Source: Ruminococcus flavefaciens MA2007 (GTDB lineage Bacteria; Bacillota; Clostridia; Oscillospirales; Ruminococcaceae). From it: a stretch of 64,000 nt of DNA. The position numbers and the translations under genes were made by a program. Shown here piece after piece: positions 4,618 through 44,928 of this stretch. The notes beneath the pieces were generated by a model. The model saw nothing but the letters and a program-made list of their open reading frames with translations, was not told the DNA's origin and searched no databases. Within the stretch, counting starts at the first letter, position 1. The number at the start of each line of letters is the position of its first letter. Location: positions 124,001-188,000 of the forward strand of contig NZ_JHXF01000001.1 of NCBI RefSeq assembly GCF_000621845.1, written 5' to 3'.

Positions 4618-4666
4618 TAATAAGTAATACGGAATATCCGTAAATAATTGAAAAGAGGTATTACCA

Positions 4667-5824
4667 ATGAATAAAATAACCAATGACATTTACTATATCG
4701 GAGTAAACGACCATGAGCTTGACCTCTTTGAGGGACAGTACGACGTGCCAAACGGCATGGCTTATAATTCATATATGATAGTTGACGACAAGATTGCTGT
4801 TTTTGATACAGTTGACGGCAATTTCACAGACCAGTGGCTCGGCAATATGGCTGAAGTCCTCGGTGACCGCAAGCCTGATTATCTTATCGTTCAGCACATG
4901 GAGCCCGACCACTCCGCAAACCTCAAGCACTTTATTGAAAAGTATCCGGAGGCTGCTATCGTAGGAAACTCCAAGACATTCGGTATGATAGACAATTTCT
5001 TCGAGGGACTTGCAATCGCAAACAAGCTCGAAGTCAAGGAAGGGGAGAAGCTCTCTCTCGGCAAGCACGAGCTTTCATTCGTGTTCGCACCAATGGTTCA
5101 TTGGCCTGAGGTAATGTTCACATACGACAGCACAGACAAGGTGCTGTTCTCGGCTGACGCATTCGGAAAGTTCGGCGCTCTCGATGTTGAGGAGGACTGG
5201 GCTTGCGAAGCTCGCCGCTATTACTTCGGTATCGTAGGCAAGTACGGTATGCAGGTGCAGGGCGTTCTGAAAAAGGCTGCTGCACTTGATATCCAGACTA
5301 TCTGCCCTCTCCACGGACCTGTTCTCAAGGAGAATCTCGGCTACTATCTTGGACTTTACAACACATGGTCAAGCTACGGTGTTGAGTCCGAGGGCATATT
5401 TATCGCTTACACATCAGTTTACGGCAATACCAAGAAGGCTGCTGAGCTTCTCAAGGAAAAGCTCGAAGCAAAGGGCTGCCCTAAGGTTGCTATCGCAGAC
5501 CTTGCAAGAGAGGATATGGCTGAGTCCGTTGAGGACGCATTCCGCTACGGAAAGCTTGTTATTGCTACAACGACATATAACGCAGATATATTCCCGTTCA
5601 TGAAGCACTTCATTCTCGACCTTACCGAGAGAAACTACCAGAACCGTACTATTGGTATCATCGAGAACGGAAGCTGGGCAGCTACTGCTGCTAAGGTTAT
5701 AAAGTCCATGTTCGAGAAGTCAAAGAACATCACATGGACAGACACAACAGTATCAATAAAGTCAGCTGTTAAGGCTGCAAATATAGAGCAGATAGAGGCT
5801 CTTGCAGACGAGCTGATAAAATAA
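4667..5824 (+). CDS. fprA: Flavodiiron protein FprA (oxygen/nitric oxide reductase)
   Basis: A-type flavoprotein of 385 aa that reduces O2 to water, and in some members NO to N2O, in the cytoplasm of anaerobes. The N-terminal metallo-beta-lactamase-like domain holds the di-iron site, with HMEPDH at residues 76-81 and further His/Asp ligands in MVHWPE and SADAFG. The C-terminal flavodoxin domain starts near 245 with FIAYTSVYGNTKKA, the FMN phosphate loop. There is no fused rubredoxin, so an external rubredoxin or similar donor is needed. The next gene is a small Fe-S disulfide reductase-like protein and thioredoxin follows later, suggesting an oxidative-stress cluster. AGAGG precedes the ATG. 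Confidence 0.95.
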   Translation: MNKITNDIYYIGVNDHELDLFEGQYDVPNGMAYNSYMIVDDKIAVFDTVDGNFTDQWLGNMAEVLGDRKPDYLIVQHMEPDHSANLKHFIEKYPEAAIVGNSKTFGMIDNFFEGLAIANKLEVKEGEKLSLGKHELSFVFAPMVHWPEVMFTYDSTDKVLFSADAFGKFGALDVEEDWACEARRYYFGIVGKYGMQVQGVLKKAAALDIQTICPLHGPVLKENLGYYLGLYNTWSSYGVESEGIFIAYTSVYGNTKKAAELLKEKLEAKGCPKVAIADLAREDMAESVEDAFRYGKLVIATTTYNADIFPFMKHFILDLTERNYQNRTIGIIENGSWAATAAKVIKSMFEKSKNITWTDTTVSIKSAVKAANIEQIEALADELIK

Positions 5825-5845
5825 AAGTTCAAAGGGGGACTGATT

Positions 5846-6049
5846 ATGAAAATTACGCTCAATCCCGACAAAGAAGTAGTTGACAGAATAAAAGAGGGAC
5901 TTAAAATGAAGGACGGCTACTGTCCGTGCAGACTTGCAAAAACTCCCGAAAACAAGTGTATGTGCAAGGAGTTCCGCGACCAGATAGCAGATCCGAATTT
6001 TGAGGGCTTCTGTCATTGTATGCTGTATTATAAATCACTGGAAGATTAA
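5846..6049 (+). CDS. Ferredoxin:thioredoxin reductase catalytic-subunit-like protein
   Basis: A 67-aa protein with the three cysteine pairs of the ferredoxin:thioredoxin reductase beta fold: CPC at 26-28, CMC at 38-40 and CHC at 56-58. In that family these hold a [4Fe-4S] cluster beside a redox-active disulfide. The middle pair is CMC rather than the plant CPC. At 67 residues it is shorter than chloroplast subunits, and no variable subunit is nearby. It lies 21 bp after fprA and is probably co-transcribed. A role in passing electrons to thioredoxin (gene at 7270) is inferred from context. Confidence 0.85.
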   Translation: MKITLNPDKEVVDRIKEGLKMKDGYCPCRLAKTPENKCMCKEFRDQIADPNFEGFCHCMLYYKSLED

Positions 6050-6061
6050 GGAGAAATGACC

Positions 6062-6094
6062 ATGAACGGGTTATTCAGATTAAGAAATTCATAA
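6062..6094 (+). CDS. Possible 10-codon leader ORF (MNGLFRLRNS)
   Basis: ATG with AAGGAG (6048-6053) 8 bases upstream; this site overlaps the stop codon of the preceding gene. The peptide stops one base before an 11-bp stem-loop (6096-6125). A translated short ORF immediately before a hairpin and a longer gene is the layout of a translation-dependent attenuator, but the peptide has no obvious sensing codons. It may equally be non-functional. Confidence 0.3.
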   Translation: MNGLFRLRNS

Positions 6095-6095
6095 C

Positions 6096-6125
6096 AGCAT
6101 GAAACTTGATAAATAGTTTCATGCT
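6096..6125 (+). terminator. Stem-loop between FTR-like and P-loop/GNAT genes
   Basis: AGCATGAAACT and AGTTTCATGCT form a perfect 11-bp stem with an 8-nt loop. Only TCTCAT follows, not a clean T tract, so it is a weak terminator, attenuator or RNA-stability element. Confidence 0.5.
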
Positions 6126-6168
6126 TCTCATAATAAAACTGAAACTATTTTATTAAGGAGATATTGTT

Positions 6169-7251
6169 ATGATATTTCAGGATAATGTTGTAAAAGAGTA
6201 TCTTAAAAACGTATATTTTATCTCGGGAACGCCCTGCGGCGGCAAGACCACTGTTTCACGGGAGCTTGGCAAAAGATACGGTATCTGCGTATATGATATC
6301 GACGAAGCTTTTGCCGCTCATCAGCAGATTTGCGACAGTGAACATCAGCCTGATATGAGCAGGCGTTTCGGAAGCGCAGATGAGTTCTTCGGACGTACTG
6401 CAGATGAGTATAAAAAATGGCTGATAAACAATACAAGGGAACAGCTTGATTTTGTACTGCTCGACCTTATAAGACTTTCGCAGGATAAAAAGGTGATATG
6501 CGACTGTCACCTGACTCCGGAGGAAGCTGTGAAGATAACAGAGCCGTCAAGGGTGATATTCCTAATAAATGATACATCCGATATTGTAAACGCTTACTGT
6601 GACCGCAAAGACCATACGGATTTCAGAGACTTCATTAACAGTGCCTCTGATGTTGGAAAAGCAAAGTCGGTCTGCAATGAAGTTCTTTGTTCACTGAGCA
6701 AAGAGCGCATAAACAGTATAAAGAACAGCGGTTACTTCTATATTGACCGTAAAAGCGGAAAAACTAAAGAAGAAACTGTTGCACTTGCGGAAAAGCATTT
6801 CGGCTTTGTGGATATAGTCAGGGTTGGCAGAGACACTCCGCTTGCTCAGGAGCTCCTACAATTCGTTGAGGAATGCTCATGGCATGAGGTAAAGGAGCAC
6901 ATCGCTGATATGCTCAGGTCGTGGGAGTTCACAGACTGGGAGTGTATGTTTGCCGCGGTTCAGGACGGAAAAATAGTTGGTATGGCTTCCATAATGAAAA
7001 CGGACTATTACCCTTTGCCTGATATATACCCGTGGATATCCTGTATCTTCGTCACGGAGAGCGCAAGGGGACACCGTATCAGCGGACAGCTCATAGACTT
7101 CGCCAACAGATACGCGAGGGAGCTTGGCTTCACAAGGAGCTATATACCCACGGAATATACAGGACTTTATGAGAAGTACGGATATGAATATATCCATGAC
7201 ATAATCAATTACGGCGGCGGGACAGACCGCCTTTACGCAAAGGAACTTTAA
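6169..7251 (+). CDS. P-loop kinase-like domain fused to GNAT acetyltransferase
   Basis: A 360-aa two-domain protein. Residues 1 to about 200 form a small P-loop NTPase with GTPCGGKT at 20-27, resembling shikimate/cytidylate-type kinases; a DxD-like DIDEAF follows near 44. Residues 215-360 are a GNAT acetyltransferase with the acetyl-CoA loop in VTESARGHRISGQLIDFA and a C-terminal YEKYGYEYI, typical of the fold's last strands. Neither substrate can be named. Kinase-acetyltransferase fusions suggest two sequential modifications of one small molecule or antibiotic, which is inference. AAGGAGATATTGTT precedes the ATG. trxA follows after 18 bp. Confidence 0.7.
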   Translation: MIFQDNVVKEYLKNVYFISGTPCGGKTTVSRELGKRYGICVYDIDEAFAAHQQICDSEHQPDMSRRFGSADEFFGRTADEYKKWLINNTREQLDFVLLDLIRLSQDKKVICDCHLTPEEAVKITEPSRVIFLINDTSDIVNAYCDRKDHTDFRDFINSASDVGKAKSVCNEVLCSLSKERINSIKNSGYFYIDRKSGKTKEETVALAEKHFGFVDIVRVGRDTPLAQELLQFVEECSWHEVKEHIADMLRSWEFTDWECMFAAVQDGKIVGMASIMKTDYYPLPDIYPWISCIFVTESARGHRISGQLIDFANRYARELGFTRSYIPTEYTGLYEKYGYEYIHDIINYGGGTDRLYAKEL

Positions 7252-40094: not shown

Positions 40095-42035
40095 TCAAAG
40101 AGTGTCTATGATATCGAGAGAGTGCTCCTCGTTCATAGTTCTGCACATTTCGATGAACTTATCCAGCGGAATGTTCTTGAGCTGCTTATTTCCGCGGATA
40201 TTGATAGAAATAAGGTCGTTTTCAGCCTCGTTGTCGCCGATGATGACAACATACGGATCCTTGTAATCCTTGAAGCGTCTTATCTTGTTCTTCATGTTGT
40301 CGTCTGTGTAGTCTACCTCTGCTCTGATGTGGTTCTTCTTGAGTAGGTCTGCTACCTTCTTAGCGTAGTCGTTGTGGTCTGTTCTGATAGGAACGATACC
40401 TACCTGCATTGGTGAGAGCCAGAACGGGAATGCGCCTGCGAAGTTCTCGGTGATGATACCGATGAATCTCTCGAATGAACCGAATATAGCTCTGTGTATC
40501 ATTACAGGCTGCTTCTCGGAGCCGTCTGAAGCGATGTACTTCATCTTGAAGTTGAGAGGAAGCTGGAAGTCGAGCTGGATAGTACCCATCTGCCACTCAC
40601 GTCCGATAGCGTCCTTCATCTTGAGGTCTATCTTAGGACCGTAGAATGCGCCGTCGCCCTCGTTGAGCTCGTATCCGTCGGGACCGTACTTCTCTTCAAG
40701 GATAGCCTTGAGGTCAGCCTCAGCCTTGTTCCATACGTTGATATCGCCCATGTAGTCGTCGGGACGTGTGGACAGCTCAGCCTTGTACTCCAGACCGAAG
40801 GTCTTGTAAATCTCTGTAGCGATATCCATGATATCGTTTATCTCGGAAGCTATCTGCTCCTCTGTTACGAGGATATGAGCGTCGTCCTGTCTGAACTGCT
40901 GAACGCGGAAGAGACCGTTGAGCTCGCCTGACTTCTCCTTACGGTGGATAACGTCAACCTGATTGAATTTAAGGGGCAGCTCCTTGTATGAACGCTGCTT
41001 GTTCATGTATACCTTGATAGCGTTAGGGCAGTTCATAGGCTTAGCACAGTAGACCTCGTTGTCCTCCTCAGCAGGGATAACGAACATACCGTCCTGATAG
41101 TGGTCCCAGTGACCTGATGTTACCCAGAGCTCCTTCTTTGAGAGAACAGGACCTGAAATTTCGGTATAGCCGTGATCCTCGTGAACGCCTCTCCAGTATT
41201 CAAGGAGAGCGTTGAAGAGCTTCCAGCCTCTTGGAAGCCAGTAAGGCATACCCGGAGCTGTGTGGTCGAACATGAAGAGACTGAGCTCCTTGCCAAGCTT
41301 CTTGTGGTCGCGGAGCTTTGCTTCCTCTATCATCTTGATATATTCGTCAAGCTGTGAAGCCTTGGGGAATGCGATAGCGTATACACGGCTGAGCATCTTG
41401 TTCTTCTCGTTGCCGCGCCAGTAAGCGCCTGTACATGAAAGGAGCTTGAATGCCTTTACGGGAGCTGTGTCCATAAGGTGAGGACCTGCGCAGAGGTCGA
41501 TGAACTCGCCCTGCTTGTAGAATGAGATAGGCTCGCCCTTGTCAGCGTGCTCCTCGCAGAGCTCTACCTTGTACGGCTCGTCCATTTCCTTGAGCTTAGC
41601 GATAGCGTCGGCAGGTGAAAGCTCGAACTTTTCAAGCTCTATGCCCTCCTTGACTATCTTCTTCATCTCAGCCTCTATCTTTTCCAGCTCCTCGGGAGTG
41701 AAAGGCTTTTCAAGGTCAAAGTCGTAGTAGAAGCCGTTCTCGATAGCAGGACCGATAGCCAGCTTTGCAGCAGGGTAAAGTCTCTTTACAGCCTGAGCAA
41801 GGATATGAGAAGCTGTGTGCCAGAAGGTCTTCTTGCCGTCGAGTGAGTCAAAGGTGCATACCTCGAACTGACAGTCGCTGTCGATAACGGTGCGGAGGTC
41901 ACAGACCTCGCCGTTTATCTTTACACAGCAGGCTGCCTTGTAAAGTCCCATGCCTATGCCCTTGATGGCCTCTGCGGCTGACTGTGCAGCCTCGATCTCG
42001 CGTGTGCTGCCGTCAGGTAATGTTAATTTGATCAT
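40095..42035 (-). CDS. thrS: Threonyl-tRNA synthetase
   Basis: A 646-aa class II synthetase. An N-terminal TGS domain (1-62) is followed by the editing domain with SAD-type signature (ASHILAQAVKRLYP; HLMDTAPVKAF), the catalytic core with zinc-ligand MNCPNAIKVY and motif 2 (FRVQQFRQDDAHILV), and the C-terminal anticodon-binding domain (VGIVPIRTDHNDYAKKVADL). Complete. It is the third gene after a T-box leader at 43070-43308, with a 126-aa ORF and a transposase gene between, so Thr-dependent control would have to extend across both. Confidence 0.97.
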   Translation of the reverse strand: MIKLTLPDGSTREIEAAQSAAEAIKGIGMGLYKAACCVKINGEVCDLRTVIDSDCQFEVCTFDSLDGKKTFWHTASHILAQAVKRLYPAAKLAIGPAIENGFYYDFDLEKPFTPEELEKIEAEMKKIVKEGIELEKFELSPADAIAKLKEMDEPYKVELCEEHADKGEPISFYKQGEFIDLCAGPHLMDTAPVKAFKLLSCTGAYWRGNEKNKMLSRVYAIAFPKASQLDEYIKMIEEAKLRDHKKLGKELSLFMFDHTAPGMPYWLPRGWKLFNALLEYWRGVHEDHGYTEISGPVLSKKELWVTSGHWDHYQDGMFVIPAEEDNEVYCAKPMNCPNAIKVYMNKQRSYKELPLKFNQVDVIHRKEKSGELNGLFRVQQFRQDDAHILVTEEQIASEINDIMDIATEIYKTFGLEYKAELSTRPDDYMGDINVWNKAEADLKAILEEKYGPDGYELNEGDGAFYGPKIDLKMKDAIGREWQMGTIQLDFQLPLNFKMKYIASDGSEKQPVMIHRAIFGSFERFIGIITENFAGAFPFWLSPMQVGIVPIRTDHNDYAKKVADLLKKNHIRAEVDYTDDNMKNKIRRFKDYKDPYVVIIGDNEAENDLISINIRGNKQLKNIPLDKFIEMCRTMNEEHSLDIIDTL

Positions 42036-42111: not shown

Positions 42112-42660
42112 TTATTCCTTGCAGAATAATTCATCATTCTCCCAATTTATCGGGTTGTTTTCGATGTATTGCCATGCGTTGCGGTATTCCCATTCATTCC
42201 GCAATACACGGTCGTAAAACGATTTTTGCCACACGGAAAAACCAGATTGCCGTGAAACACAGCCTTTGAATTGATTCATTATCCTCGATACTGTAGGGGC
42301 GGCGTTCCGCCGCCCGTTATTATTGTCATTATTAACAACGAGAATCAAATGAACATGGTTAGGCATGATCACAAATTTGGGAATAAAAACAATATCTGAA
42401 TATATCGTCGGAATTTTATACAATTCATTTTTTACGATTTTTCCATATTCGGATAAATGTATTTTTTTATCGTTATTTTGCGGGCGGCGGGACGCCGCCC
42501 CTACGATTGGCGGTTGGTTGTCCGCAATTGGTTTATATTTATCGTTGTTATCCCAGAAAATGCACATTTTATTTTTGGTGCAAATGGTAATGAAATATGC
42601 GCCGTTACGGGAATAATCGTAATTATCGAGGCGTATATCCTTTCGTACCGGTCTGTCCAT
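42112..42660 (-). CDS. REP-associated tyrosine transposase (RAYT, HUH/Y1 family)
   Basis: A 182-aa Y1 nuclease of the IS200/RAYT type. The metal-binding HUH is MPNHVHLILV (His102, His104); the catalytic tyrosine is most likely Tyr149 in WQKSFYDRVLRN. No inverted ends or second ORF are seen, so it is a single-copy domesticated-looking RAYT rather than an IS. Two REP-like palindromes lie in frame inside it and encode VGAASRRP (53-60) and GRRNAAPT (116-123). It begins one base after the stop of the 126-aa gene. Its proposed substrates are the GTAG palindromes across the window. Confidence 0.88.
   Translation of the reverse strand: MDRPVRKDIRLDNYDYSRNGAYFITICTKNKMCIFWDNNDKYKPIADNQPPIVGAASRRPQNNDKKIHLSEYGKIVKNELYKIPTIYSDIVFIPKFVIMPNHVHLILVVNNDNNNGRRNAAPTVSRIMNQFKGCVSRQSGFSVWQKSFYDRVLRNEWEYRNAWQYIENNPINWENDELFCKE
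42292..42315 (+). repeat. REP-like palindrome inside the RAYT gene (1)
   Basis: TGTAGGGGCGGCG, TT, CCGCCGCCCG: the same core as at 60718. It is read in the RAYT frame on the minus strand as GRRNAAPT. Confidence 0.9.
42481..42504 (-). repeat. REP-like palindrome inside the RAYT gene (2)
   Basis: Minus-strand GTAGGGGCGGCG followed by TC and CCGCCGCCCG; encodes VGAASRRP in frame. Inverted relative to the copy 180 bp away. Confidence 0.9.
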
Positions 42661-42661
42661 A

Positions 42662-43042
42662 TCAATCCGCCCAGCCTGTTATCTCGAACATTTCGGCGAA
42701 CAATTCGACGTACACGAAATTCTGCATATATCCGTCATTTGTGCCCGTATCGAAGCACACGATGACGTCTCCGTCGTCAAGGTCTATATGGACGTTGCGG
42801 AGCTCCAGAAGCTTCGCAAGAGCGTCGGCATCTGAGCCCTCATAGTAGCCCTCGTCTATTATTATTTCCGCTATCTGACGGCGGCTGCCGTCCAGCTTGG
42901 CAAGCTTTTTTGCGATAGAGGAAAGGTTATCCATTATCTGCTTTTCGTCGTCCACGTAGAAGCGGACAGTCATGGTCTCGCCCCAGAGCTTATAAGGCAG
43001 CTCAAAGGCTTCTTCCTGTTTGTTGTAGCTGATATTGCTCAA
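42662..43042 (-). CDS. Unknown 126-aa acidic protein downstream of the T-box
   Basis: A 126-aa soluble protein, opening MSNISYNKQEEAFELPYKLW, rich in Asp/Glu, with IIIDEGYYEGSDADALAKLL and DLDDGDVIVCFDTGT. No family recognised. It starts with TTG after GGGGAGGTGAG and is the first ORF after the T-box terminator. Function unknown; a threonine-related role could be guessed only from position. Confidence 0.6.
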   Translation of the reverse strand: MSNISYNKQEEAFELPYKLWGETMTVRFYVDDEKQIMDNLSSIAKKLAKLDGSRRQIAEIIIDEGYYEGSDADALAKLLELRNVHIDLDDGDVIVCFDTGTNDGYMQNFVYVELFAEMFEITGWAD

Positions 43043-43069: not shown

Positions 43070-43308
43070 AAAAAACGCCCCTCACGCCTGTATTAGGCAC
43101 AAGGGACGATGATACACCGTGGTTCCACCCTGATTCACACGGAGTTTTCTCCGTATCTCAAGTGCTCTGTAACGGGAGCTCCCGACGCTTATTGGGCGTA
43201 CTCAGAGGCGGTGTGCTGTGATATCCTGACCGTGCAGCCTCGCACCAAGCGGCTGCTCTCTGAAACGGTATCGGAAAAGCCTTCCTCATCAACGTTTTTT
43301 ATAATATG
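43070..43308 (-). ncRNA. T-box riboswitch (tRNA-sensing leader), probably Thr
   Basis: Minus-strand leader of about 235 nt. The T-box core AGGGTGGAACCACGG is at 43117-43131. The competing terminator is CGTCCCTTGTGCCT...AGGCGTGAGGGGCG plus T6 (43070-43108). Stem I features GATGAGGAAG and AGAGAGC are upstream. ACA/ACC (Thr) lies at 43210-43214 where a specifier codon would be expected, but an ATC nearby cannot be excluded without folding. Uncharged tRNA pairing stabilises the antiterminator and lets transcription continue toward thrS. Confidence 0.9.
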
Positions 43309-44794: not shown

Positions 44795-44928
44795 AAATTC
44801 CGAAATATAGATGTGTGGGCCCTGTGCAACAAGACCCCGTGAACCATGTCAGGCGGGAGACCGAGCAGCATTAAGCGGTGCGTGTTGTGTGCCGCAGCAA
44901 GCCTGCACATCTATGTTCCGGAATTTTT
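44795..44928 (+). ncRNA. ffs: Signal recognition particle RNA
   Basis: A long hairpin: AATTCCGAAATATAGATGTG pairs with CACATCTATGTTCCGGAATT at the far end. The apical domain has the universal SRP core GTCAGG (44848-44853) and AGCAGC (44864-44869) flanking CGG-GAGA-CCG, a GNRA tetraloop. It is the small bacterial type without an Alu domain and ends in T5, which also terminates it. Location just upstream of the dnaX-ybaB-recR group is the common Firmicute arrangement. It binds Ffh to target membrane proteins. Confidence 0.93.

Follow-up and report, generated by a model that had tools for sequence, protein, structure and literature searches.

The window analyzed here comprises 64,000 nucleotides of Ruminococcus flavefaciens MA2007 (positions 124,001 to 188,000 of contig NZ_JHXF01000001.1; genome size 3.39 Mb). 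At 42112..42660 (minus strand), it carries an open reading frame (ORF) of 182 amino acids (aa) predicted to encode a Y1 HUH transposase of the TnpAREP kind, also termed REP-associated tyrosine transposase (RAYT; REP, repetitive extragenic palindrome). The gene is embedded in a row of minus-strand features. A T-box leader (43099..43301; RF00230, 90.0 bits, E 7.6e-20), detected at the E-value threshold with a score under the Rfam gathering threshold of 93, lies upstream of a 126-aa ORF without Pfam match (ORF126, 42662..43042), which directly precedes the transposase gene, and thrS, encoding threonyl-tRNA synthetase, follows next downstream (40095..42035). Two palindromes of a family scattered through the genome are read in frame within the transposase gene itself.

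The transposase and its catalytic residues

The protein matched the NCBIfam model NF047646 (REP_Tyr_transpos) with 54.1 bits (E 1.5e-14), the curated equivalog cut-off of 80 bits not being reached. Sequence alignment to the E. coli TnpAREP structure 4er8 yielded an E-value of 0.0051, and the same structure was the best fold match (5.6e-07) of the AlphaFold model, which has a mean predicted local distance difference test (pLDDT) score of 81.8 and served for secondary structure assignment by DSSP. The HVH motif occupies aa 102-104 (42349..42357, minus strand), its two histidines, H102 and H104, showing no variation among 48 sequences, and a WQ motif is present as W144-Q145. The original prediction had correctly described the ORF, the HVH motif, and the two in-frame palindromes in opposite orientation, but had named Tyr149 as the catalytic residue. 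Y149 appears neither among the invariant nor among the 90% conserved positions. Judged by the 4er8 alignment and by invariance across the 48 homologues, Y165 within YIENNP (42166..42168, minus strand) is the catalytic tyrosine instead, occupying in the alignment the position of Y115 of the E. coli enzyme.

The nearest relatives in protein searches stem from Ruminococcus, mostly R. flavefaciens, followed by other Clostridia and a few members of other phyla. Within its own genome, the protein had two matches, both near full length, representing two genes of 53% identity; the second copy is locus L002. This departs from the multicopy, near-identical element expected of IS200/IS605, for which subclass 1.1 as listed in Table 1 of PMC6006769 (mean of 4.8 copies, 99.4% identity) can serve as comparator.

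Two inverted REPs within the gene

REP 1 (GTAGGGGCGGCGTCCCGCCGCCCG; 42481..42504, minus strand) precedes the HUH motif and encodes VGAASRRP (aa 53-60). REP 2 (42293..42316), reading GTAGGGGCGGCGTTCCGCCGCCCG on the plus strand and hence antisense to the gene, lies between HUH and Y165 and encodes GRRNAAPT (aa 116-123). Both palindromes are of the GTAGGGGC type, GTAG-headed, in frame, and mutually inverted. As single-stranded DNA, each is predicted to form a stem of 8 bp (-11.3 to -11.7 kcal/mol), with none of 200 shuffles being as good. The family is indeed scattered and GTAG-headed as originally claimed, and it is far above chance in the genome: the pattern GTAGGGGC-N11-GCCCG was found 103 times (the in-gene two included) and its reversed control not once. 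GGCG-N3-CGCC, the stem class to which the in-gene copies belong, accounted for 28 genome matches, again including these two and with zero matches for the reversed control.

Homologous genes were collected as 56 loci from genome contigs and 70 loci from 125 genomes of the genus. The genus search listed 112 places, of which 70 loci were taken (30 from searches, 40 by place), the rest being mostly partial. Among 112 distinct genes with an HUH motif, 83 carried a GTAGGG-type motif both before and after HUH, 18 at one site, and 11 at neither, so that the original prediction's own counter-scenario, in which all homologues would carry these segments with non-palindromic DNA, does not describe this set. 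Four loci (L020, L045, L055, and L057) stand outside the 112, showing no HUH in the stretch read (the frame of L020 is fused upstream), and L008, in which REP 2 is lost, is still counted among the 83. Within these, REP 1 occupies codon phase 0 in 81 and the antisense REP 2 phase 2 in 76 genes, and the ends of the pair are 170-284 bp apart with GTAG facing outward. A class-wide search of 391 genomes (61 with a match) contributed 69 loci besides the window's own, leaving mostly partial places aside, and L197 of this set is without HUH. GTAG was present at both sites in 50 of 68 class-wide genes, 42 of them matching; after removal of three repeats of earlier genes, the figures are 47 of 65 and 39.

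Several single loci deserve mention. L064 (genome G009) is a copy with two in-frame stops, without motif at site 1 and with an altered REP 2; this single case would be in line with a retention of REPs limited to working genes. In L008 (5747-8269, the same gene as L069), the transposase ORF continues in frame into thrS, forming an 841-aa frame that no longer contains REP 2. The L020 homologue (4633-6477), with the loops VGRDAHDAP and GALRASHPT, is the in-frame extension of an upstream ORF resembling a tRNA nucleotidyltransferase.

Matching of the two copies and nucleotide conservation

The REP stem sequences vary widely among genes, whereas site 1 and site 2 within one gene are nearly the same. 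In the 83 two-site genes, the within-gene mismatch averaged 0.040 compared with 0.41 after shuffling of site 2 (minimum of 0.34 in 10,000 shuffles); all 24 bases agree in 46 of the 83 pairs, and the mismatch does not exceed 0.17 in 81. The class-wide set gave 0.12 versus 0.45 (minimum 0.37). Where a gene held several candidate REPs, the best-matching pair was chosen, so that matching is slightly favoured in these figures. Conservation extends to the nucleotide level. All 42 gene pairs that are 75-85% identical outside the REPs retain the REP type, and at this gene identity the third codon positions of the REPs are 96-97% identical in comparison to 53-63% in the other segments; the same-type condition of this test could favour the REPs, except in this 75-85% bin, where all 42 pairs are of one type.

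These observations bear on the explanation that REPs reached the loops by chance and persist there as neutral insertions, a caution also voiced in PMC6006769 and close to the original suggestion that the RAYT gene had tolerated insertion of its own substrate. The REP 1 stretch (aa 53-62) is modelled by AlphaFold with a pLDDT below 50, some homologues do without the motif, and REPs in other genes are known (PMC3733652). In contrast, the same sites and orientation recur in many lineages, the two copies match, third positions are far more conserved than elsewhere, and the REP type co-varies with the recognition helix as shown below. Neutral loop inserts are not expected to show such third-position conservation and copy matching. 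We therefore consider mere tolerance disfavoured and very unlikely; the original wording understated the constancy of the sites and the constraint acting on them.

Matching inverted copies could also be maintained for the sake of the transcript, if the REPs paired in the mRNA and formed a long stem around the HUH segment that lowers expression. The inverted orientation in the pairs found agrees with this idea, as does the fold predicted for a 236-nt RNA, featuring a long-range REP1-REP2 duplex (-79.8 kcal/mol, z -6.9). Of the stem differences seen in 57 distinct unequal pairs, however, 14 have a compensating change in their own hairpin, which breaks the long-range pairing, 38 are one-sided, and five are neither. 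This is suggestive only, and would favour conservation of the two copies as separate hairpins over conservation of a long mRNA duplex. A long-range duplex as the main constraint is thus weakened, and we regard control through the mRNA as an improbable alternative. As a separate observation, L044/L185, L106, and L139 contain one in-gene REP whose apex is inverted with respect to its partner, with the stem kept, as if the hairpin tip had flipped.

Co-variation of REP type with the recognition helix

Two parts of the protein are of particular concern for the link between enzyme and REP type. The segment between the two REPs (42317..42480, minus strand) includes a helix at aa 71-86 and the HUH strands and moves with the REP type. 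Helix alpha3 (aa 124-139; 42244..42291, minus strand; DSSP on the model) begins directly after REP 2 and is the putative REP recognition helix: K82 in alpha3 of E. coli TnpAREP contacts the REP bulge, according to PMC8266576. Residue 129 of the window protein aligns with K82 in the 4er8 alignment and was the top REP-predicting column in both rankings performed.

Partial Mantel tests over 107 genes correlated REP distance with alpha3 (0.355) and the between-REP segment (0.232; both p 0.002), the N-terminus (0.044) and the tail (0.053) being not significant. For this set, eight of 50 class-wide pairs fell outside the match limit, no helix anchor was present in L193 and L195, and duplicates and short rows were removed (122 to 107). 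An earlier version with 77 genes, omitting L008, duplicates, L043 and L125 (no WQ anchor), L012, L082, and L113, gave 0.245 for the helix and 0.272 for the between-REP segment. Restricted to 23 genes of the thrS locus, the partial correlations were 0.62 and 0.34, respectively. Within 2,682 remote pairs, helix identity was 0.53 in the 64 pairs with similar REPs and 0.28 in the 2,308 pairs with different REPs, while N-terminus (0.47/0.45) and tail (0.52/0.48) hardly differed. The REP-predicting columns 126, 129, 133, 134, and 136 form one helix face, whereas columns 124, 127, 128, and 138 predict the REP type hardly or not at all. Taken together, the REP type tracks mainly the between-REP segment and one face of alpha3.

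Module differences between sister genes

With REP types defined on 12 core positions, the site-1 type changed seven times (minimum 6) on the tree of between-REP segment plus helix of 25 thrS-locus genes and 11 times on the corresponding tree of N-terminus plus tail. The respective numbers for 29 genes of the second locus were two (minimum 2) and nine, with shuffled means on the N-terminus plus tail trees of 16.8 (thrS locus) and 13.2 (second locus). Site 2 behaved alike, changing six versus 11 times at the thrS locus and three versus 10 times at the second locus.

The pattern is seen directly in closely related genes. L071 (carrying a stop) and L082 are nearly identical on the DNA level upstream (0.92), in the N-terminal part (0.93), in the C-terminal part (0.95 over 66 nt), and downstream (0.99), yet differ within the module, i.e., in the between-REP segment (0.58) and the helix (0.71), with unlike REP types at both sites. 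The same mosaic was found in L114/L102 and L002/L089, amounting to three gene pairs in all. The window gene and its counterpart L080 present another picture, with flanks of 0.95-0.97 identity and a whole gene that is divergent (0.46-0.74).

Such mosaics raise the question of physical linkage: REP 1, the HUH segment, REP 2, and alpha3 are contiguous and might simply move together by homologous recombination, with the REPs being alike via conversion among REPs and without any role in the gene. The window parts concerned fall within ~260 bp, module differences within conserved flanks resemble recombination tracts, and at the second locus the between-REP segment accounts for the helix signal. Against this stands that the co-variation singles out one helix face and persists in remote pairs, where the third-position identity of the helix is not raised (0.43 vs 0.46) and the helix-REP link is therefore no recent hitch-hiking. 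Moreover, CGCC...GGCG occurs in genome G010 only in the two in-gene copies out of nine type-pattern matches, the other seven having TGCC; together with G007 (7 vs 12 of 19; both counted by eye), this is not what simple homogenisation with the REPs of the genome would lead one to expect. Linkage alone is rated as unlikely.

A further possibility is that the module is itself mobile, the inverted REPs acting as element ends and the enzyme moving REP-HUH-REP between genes in a REPIN-like manner. The inverted pair with GTAG outward is compatible with this, and in L114 and L075 the inner REP that matches REP 2 is accompanied on its outer side by an additional REP of a different type, as if a new module had been set beside an old REP. 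The differing tract, in contrast, takes in alpha3, which lies outside REP 2, and no free module was found in the window's own genome, the only one searched (two near-full-length matches). A self-mobile module seems hardly likely at all.

REP abundance across the genus

A transposase match (fragments included) was present in 53 of the 125 genomes of the genus. The median number of REPs was 36 in these genomes and 0 in the 72 without match (Mann-Whitney 3.5e-18), and for genomes at least 90% complete it was 45 (n=38) compared with 0 (n=33). This supports the original proposal of a REP/RAYT system in a genus of the Bacillota and differs from the equal abundance in RAYT-free relatives that had been considered as its counter-evidence, yet 11 match-less genomes hold at least five REPs. 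After subtraction of the two in-gene copies, the in-gene type predicted the genomic abundance in four out of four types (p values of 0.003, 0.0001, 0.007, and 0.010 across the genus, genome relatedness not being corrected for). The last value, for type T8, excludes G061, whose T8-type REP lies upstream of its gene.

Genomic surroundings

Window-type genes occupy one locus where flank sequence was covered, being followed by thrS wherever that stretch was covered and usually preceded by ORF126; no such ORF was detected in L009, L067, and L072-L074. The transposase gene sits between T-box leader and thrS in six loci checked, and a T-box was present in five of five relatives searched, scoring 81.7-91 bits and in each case below the gathering score of 93; in L009 it directly precedes the transposase. 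The 300 bp on either side of the gene were free of detected REPs in all 25 thrS-locus and in 26 of 28 second-locus genes, and none of the 25 and none of the 28 had REPs on both outer sides (gene starts approximated). The same REP detector found both orientations inside 47 of the 53 genes.

At the place of thrS, two kinds of the gene occur, being 91-100% or ~54-64% identical to that of the window (set compared with the others: L003, L008-L010, L045, L072-L074, L079, and L101), as if it had been replaced in some lineages. Elsewhere in the window, an ordinary bacterial small signal recognition particle RNA (RF00169, 62.4 bits) is located at 44813-44911 (plus strand).

Interpretation

On the level of sequence, the analysis reveals a two-site architecture with matching copies, nucleotide conservation, and module differences in near-identical sister genes. 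It further reveals co-variation of the REPs with one alpha3 face, a REP abundance associated with the gene and the in-gene type, and the arrangement T-box-ORF126-transposase-thrS. The interpretation we favour, with a probability of roughly one half, is that of a TnpAREP akin to subclass 2.4 whose inverted, cognate REP pair is internal and travels with the recognition helix as a module. The enzyme would be a single-strand HUH/Tyr protein that should bind the GTAG hairpins scattered in the genome. Whereas classical RAYT genes have an inverted REP pair on their flanks, the pair here sits inside the gene, at two fixed loop-encoding sites around HUH, and both internal copies would represent the cognate REP type of the enzyme, maintained at the nucleotide level. 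Together with the between-REP segment and the hairpin-reading alpha3, the REPs would be swapped between genes as one module. The protein may bind its internal REPs, which most likely would provide a self-target limiting or tuning the own gene or message and thereby keep enzyme and substrate matched. If the T-box reads tRNA-Thr, the transposase would be expressed upon threonine starvation.

A number of results weigh against this interpretation. The protein stays below the bit score needed to be filed under NF047646 as well as below the gathering score of Pfam PF01797 Y1_Tnp (15.2 of 23 bits). Homologues lacking the motif at one or both sites (29 of 112) indicate that the REPs are not essential to the fold. 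Besides the above-mentioned REP-bearing genomes without detected match, G065 and G081 have a transposase match and zero REPs of the searched pattern, and the GGCGATGCC type, which is carried in-gene by L080, occurs 31 times in G000 without a transposase of that type. In the 77-gene version, signals for N-terminus (0.072, p 0.028) and tail (0.102, p 0.001) persist. In 28 second-locus genes, the between-REP segment reached 0.68 and the helix -0.13, the latter not being significant once the between-REP segment was controlled. One of the column rankings placed a tail anchor column second and a between-REP column third, and L099 shares similar REPs with L141, L143, L144, and L152 at unlike helices, all being remote pairs. 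Finally, N-terminus and tail are more conserved, making their trees less resolved; these trees hold some REP-type signal themselves (11 changes where shuffling gave at least 13, and nine where it gave at least nine), and the tests are not independent since the genes are kin.

The module interpretation can tentatively be taken one step further. In these Clostridia, each transposase gene might be a self-labelled specificity cassette, containing two functional targets of its own that are read for self-control, with new specificities spreading by exchange of the REP-HUH-REP-helix module. We regard this as a possibility that falls short of being probable. If true, the in-gene REP would name the target of the helix, and the helix-to-hairpin code would become readable from sequence alone. 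Provided that each subclass-2.4 gene names its own target in this manner, many enzyme-target pairs would become available at once and the alpha3 code directly testable. The locus also bears on the question why bacteria retain single-copy domesticated transposases, as one appears to be kept beside thrS and behind a T-box across the genus, with the specificity module being swapped while the transposase stays in place.

Comparison with known systems

In-frame REPs within the gene are described by Quentin 2018 (PMC6006769) as a predominant feature of TnpAREP subclass 2.4, corresponding to group 4 of Bertels (Table 1 therein); the headline of our finding has thus been in print since 2018. The window protein resembles this subclass in NHVH (motif NH[IFV]H), WQ, and YIENNP (YIxNNP), the listed motif containing Y165. 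Its REPs are likewise long, with a stem opening with G-C pairs and GTAG-headed copies across the genome, and REP 2 is in frame between HuH and Y. Differences are that insertions in subclass 2.4 are generally located between HuH and Y according to Quentin, whereas REP 1 precedes HuH here, and that second-locus homologues have DH or EH in place of NH. The passages of PMC6006769 considered here do not mention copy matching, alpha3 co-variation, module exchange, or an operon. Neither a helix co-varying with in-gene REPs nor the thrS operon came up in the titles and abstracts surveyed; absence from print is not established by this, as supplements and most subscription papers lie outside.

With the classical RAYT/REPtron as reported by Nunvar 2010 (PMC2817692), the system shares REP-RAYT coevolution and the correlation of rayt with cognate REP abundance. 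Classical REPtron genes are described as always flanked by two inverted REPs (PMC2817692), in contrast to the thrS-locus and second-locus genes here, none of which have REPs within 300 bp on both sides. The E. coli TnpAREP (4er8; PMC8266576) agrees in fold, HUH/Tyr alignment, WQ motif, and alpha3 as REP-contacting helix; it belongs to group 2 and differs by EHMH and YIYINP in the alignment and by a shorter post-HUH loop without REP-like stretch. According to PMC8266576, hairpin recognition is worked out for three REPtrons, with a structure for E. coli only. Palindromes read in frame within proteins are also known from Rickettsia palindromic elements (RPE) and others (PMC3733652), with the distinction that the carrier is here the presumed enzyme itself. 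Compared with these systems, the matched pair at two sites, the nucleotide constraint, the apparent exchange of REPs along with the helix that reads them, and the location beside thrS seem to be new.
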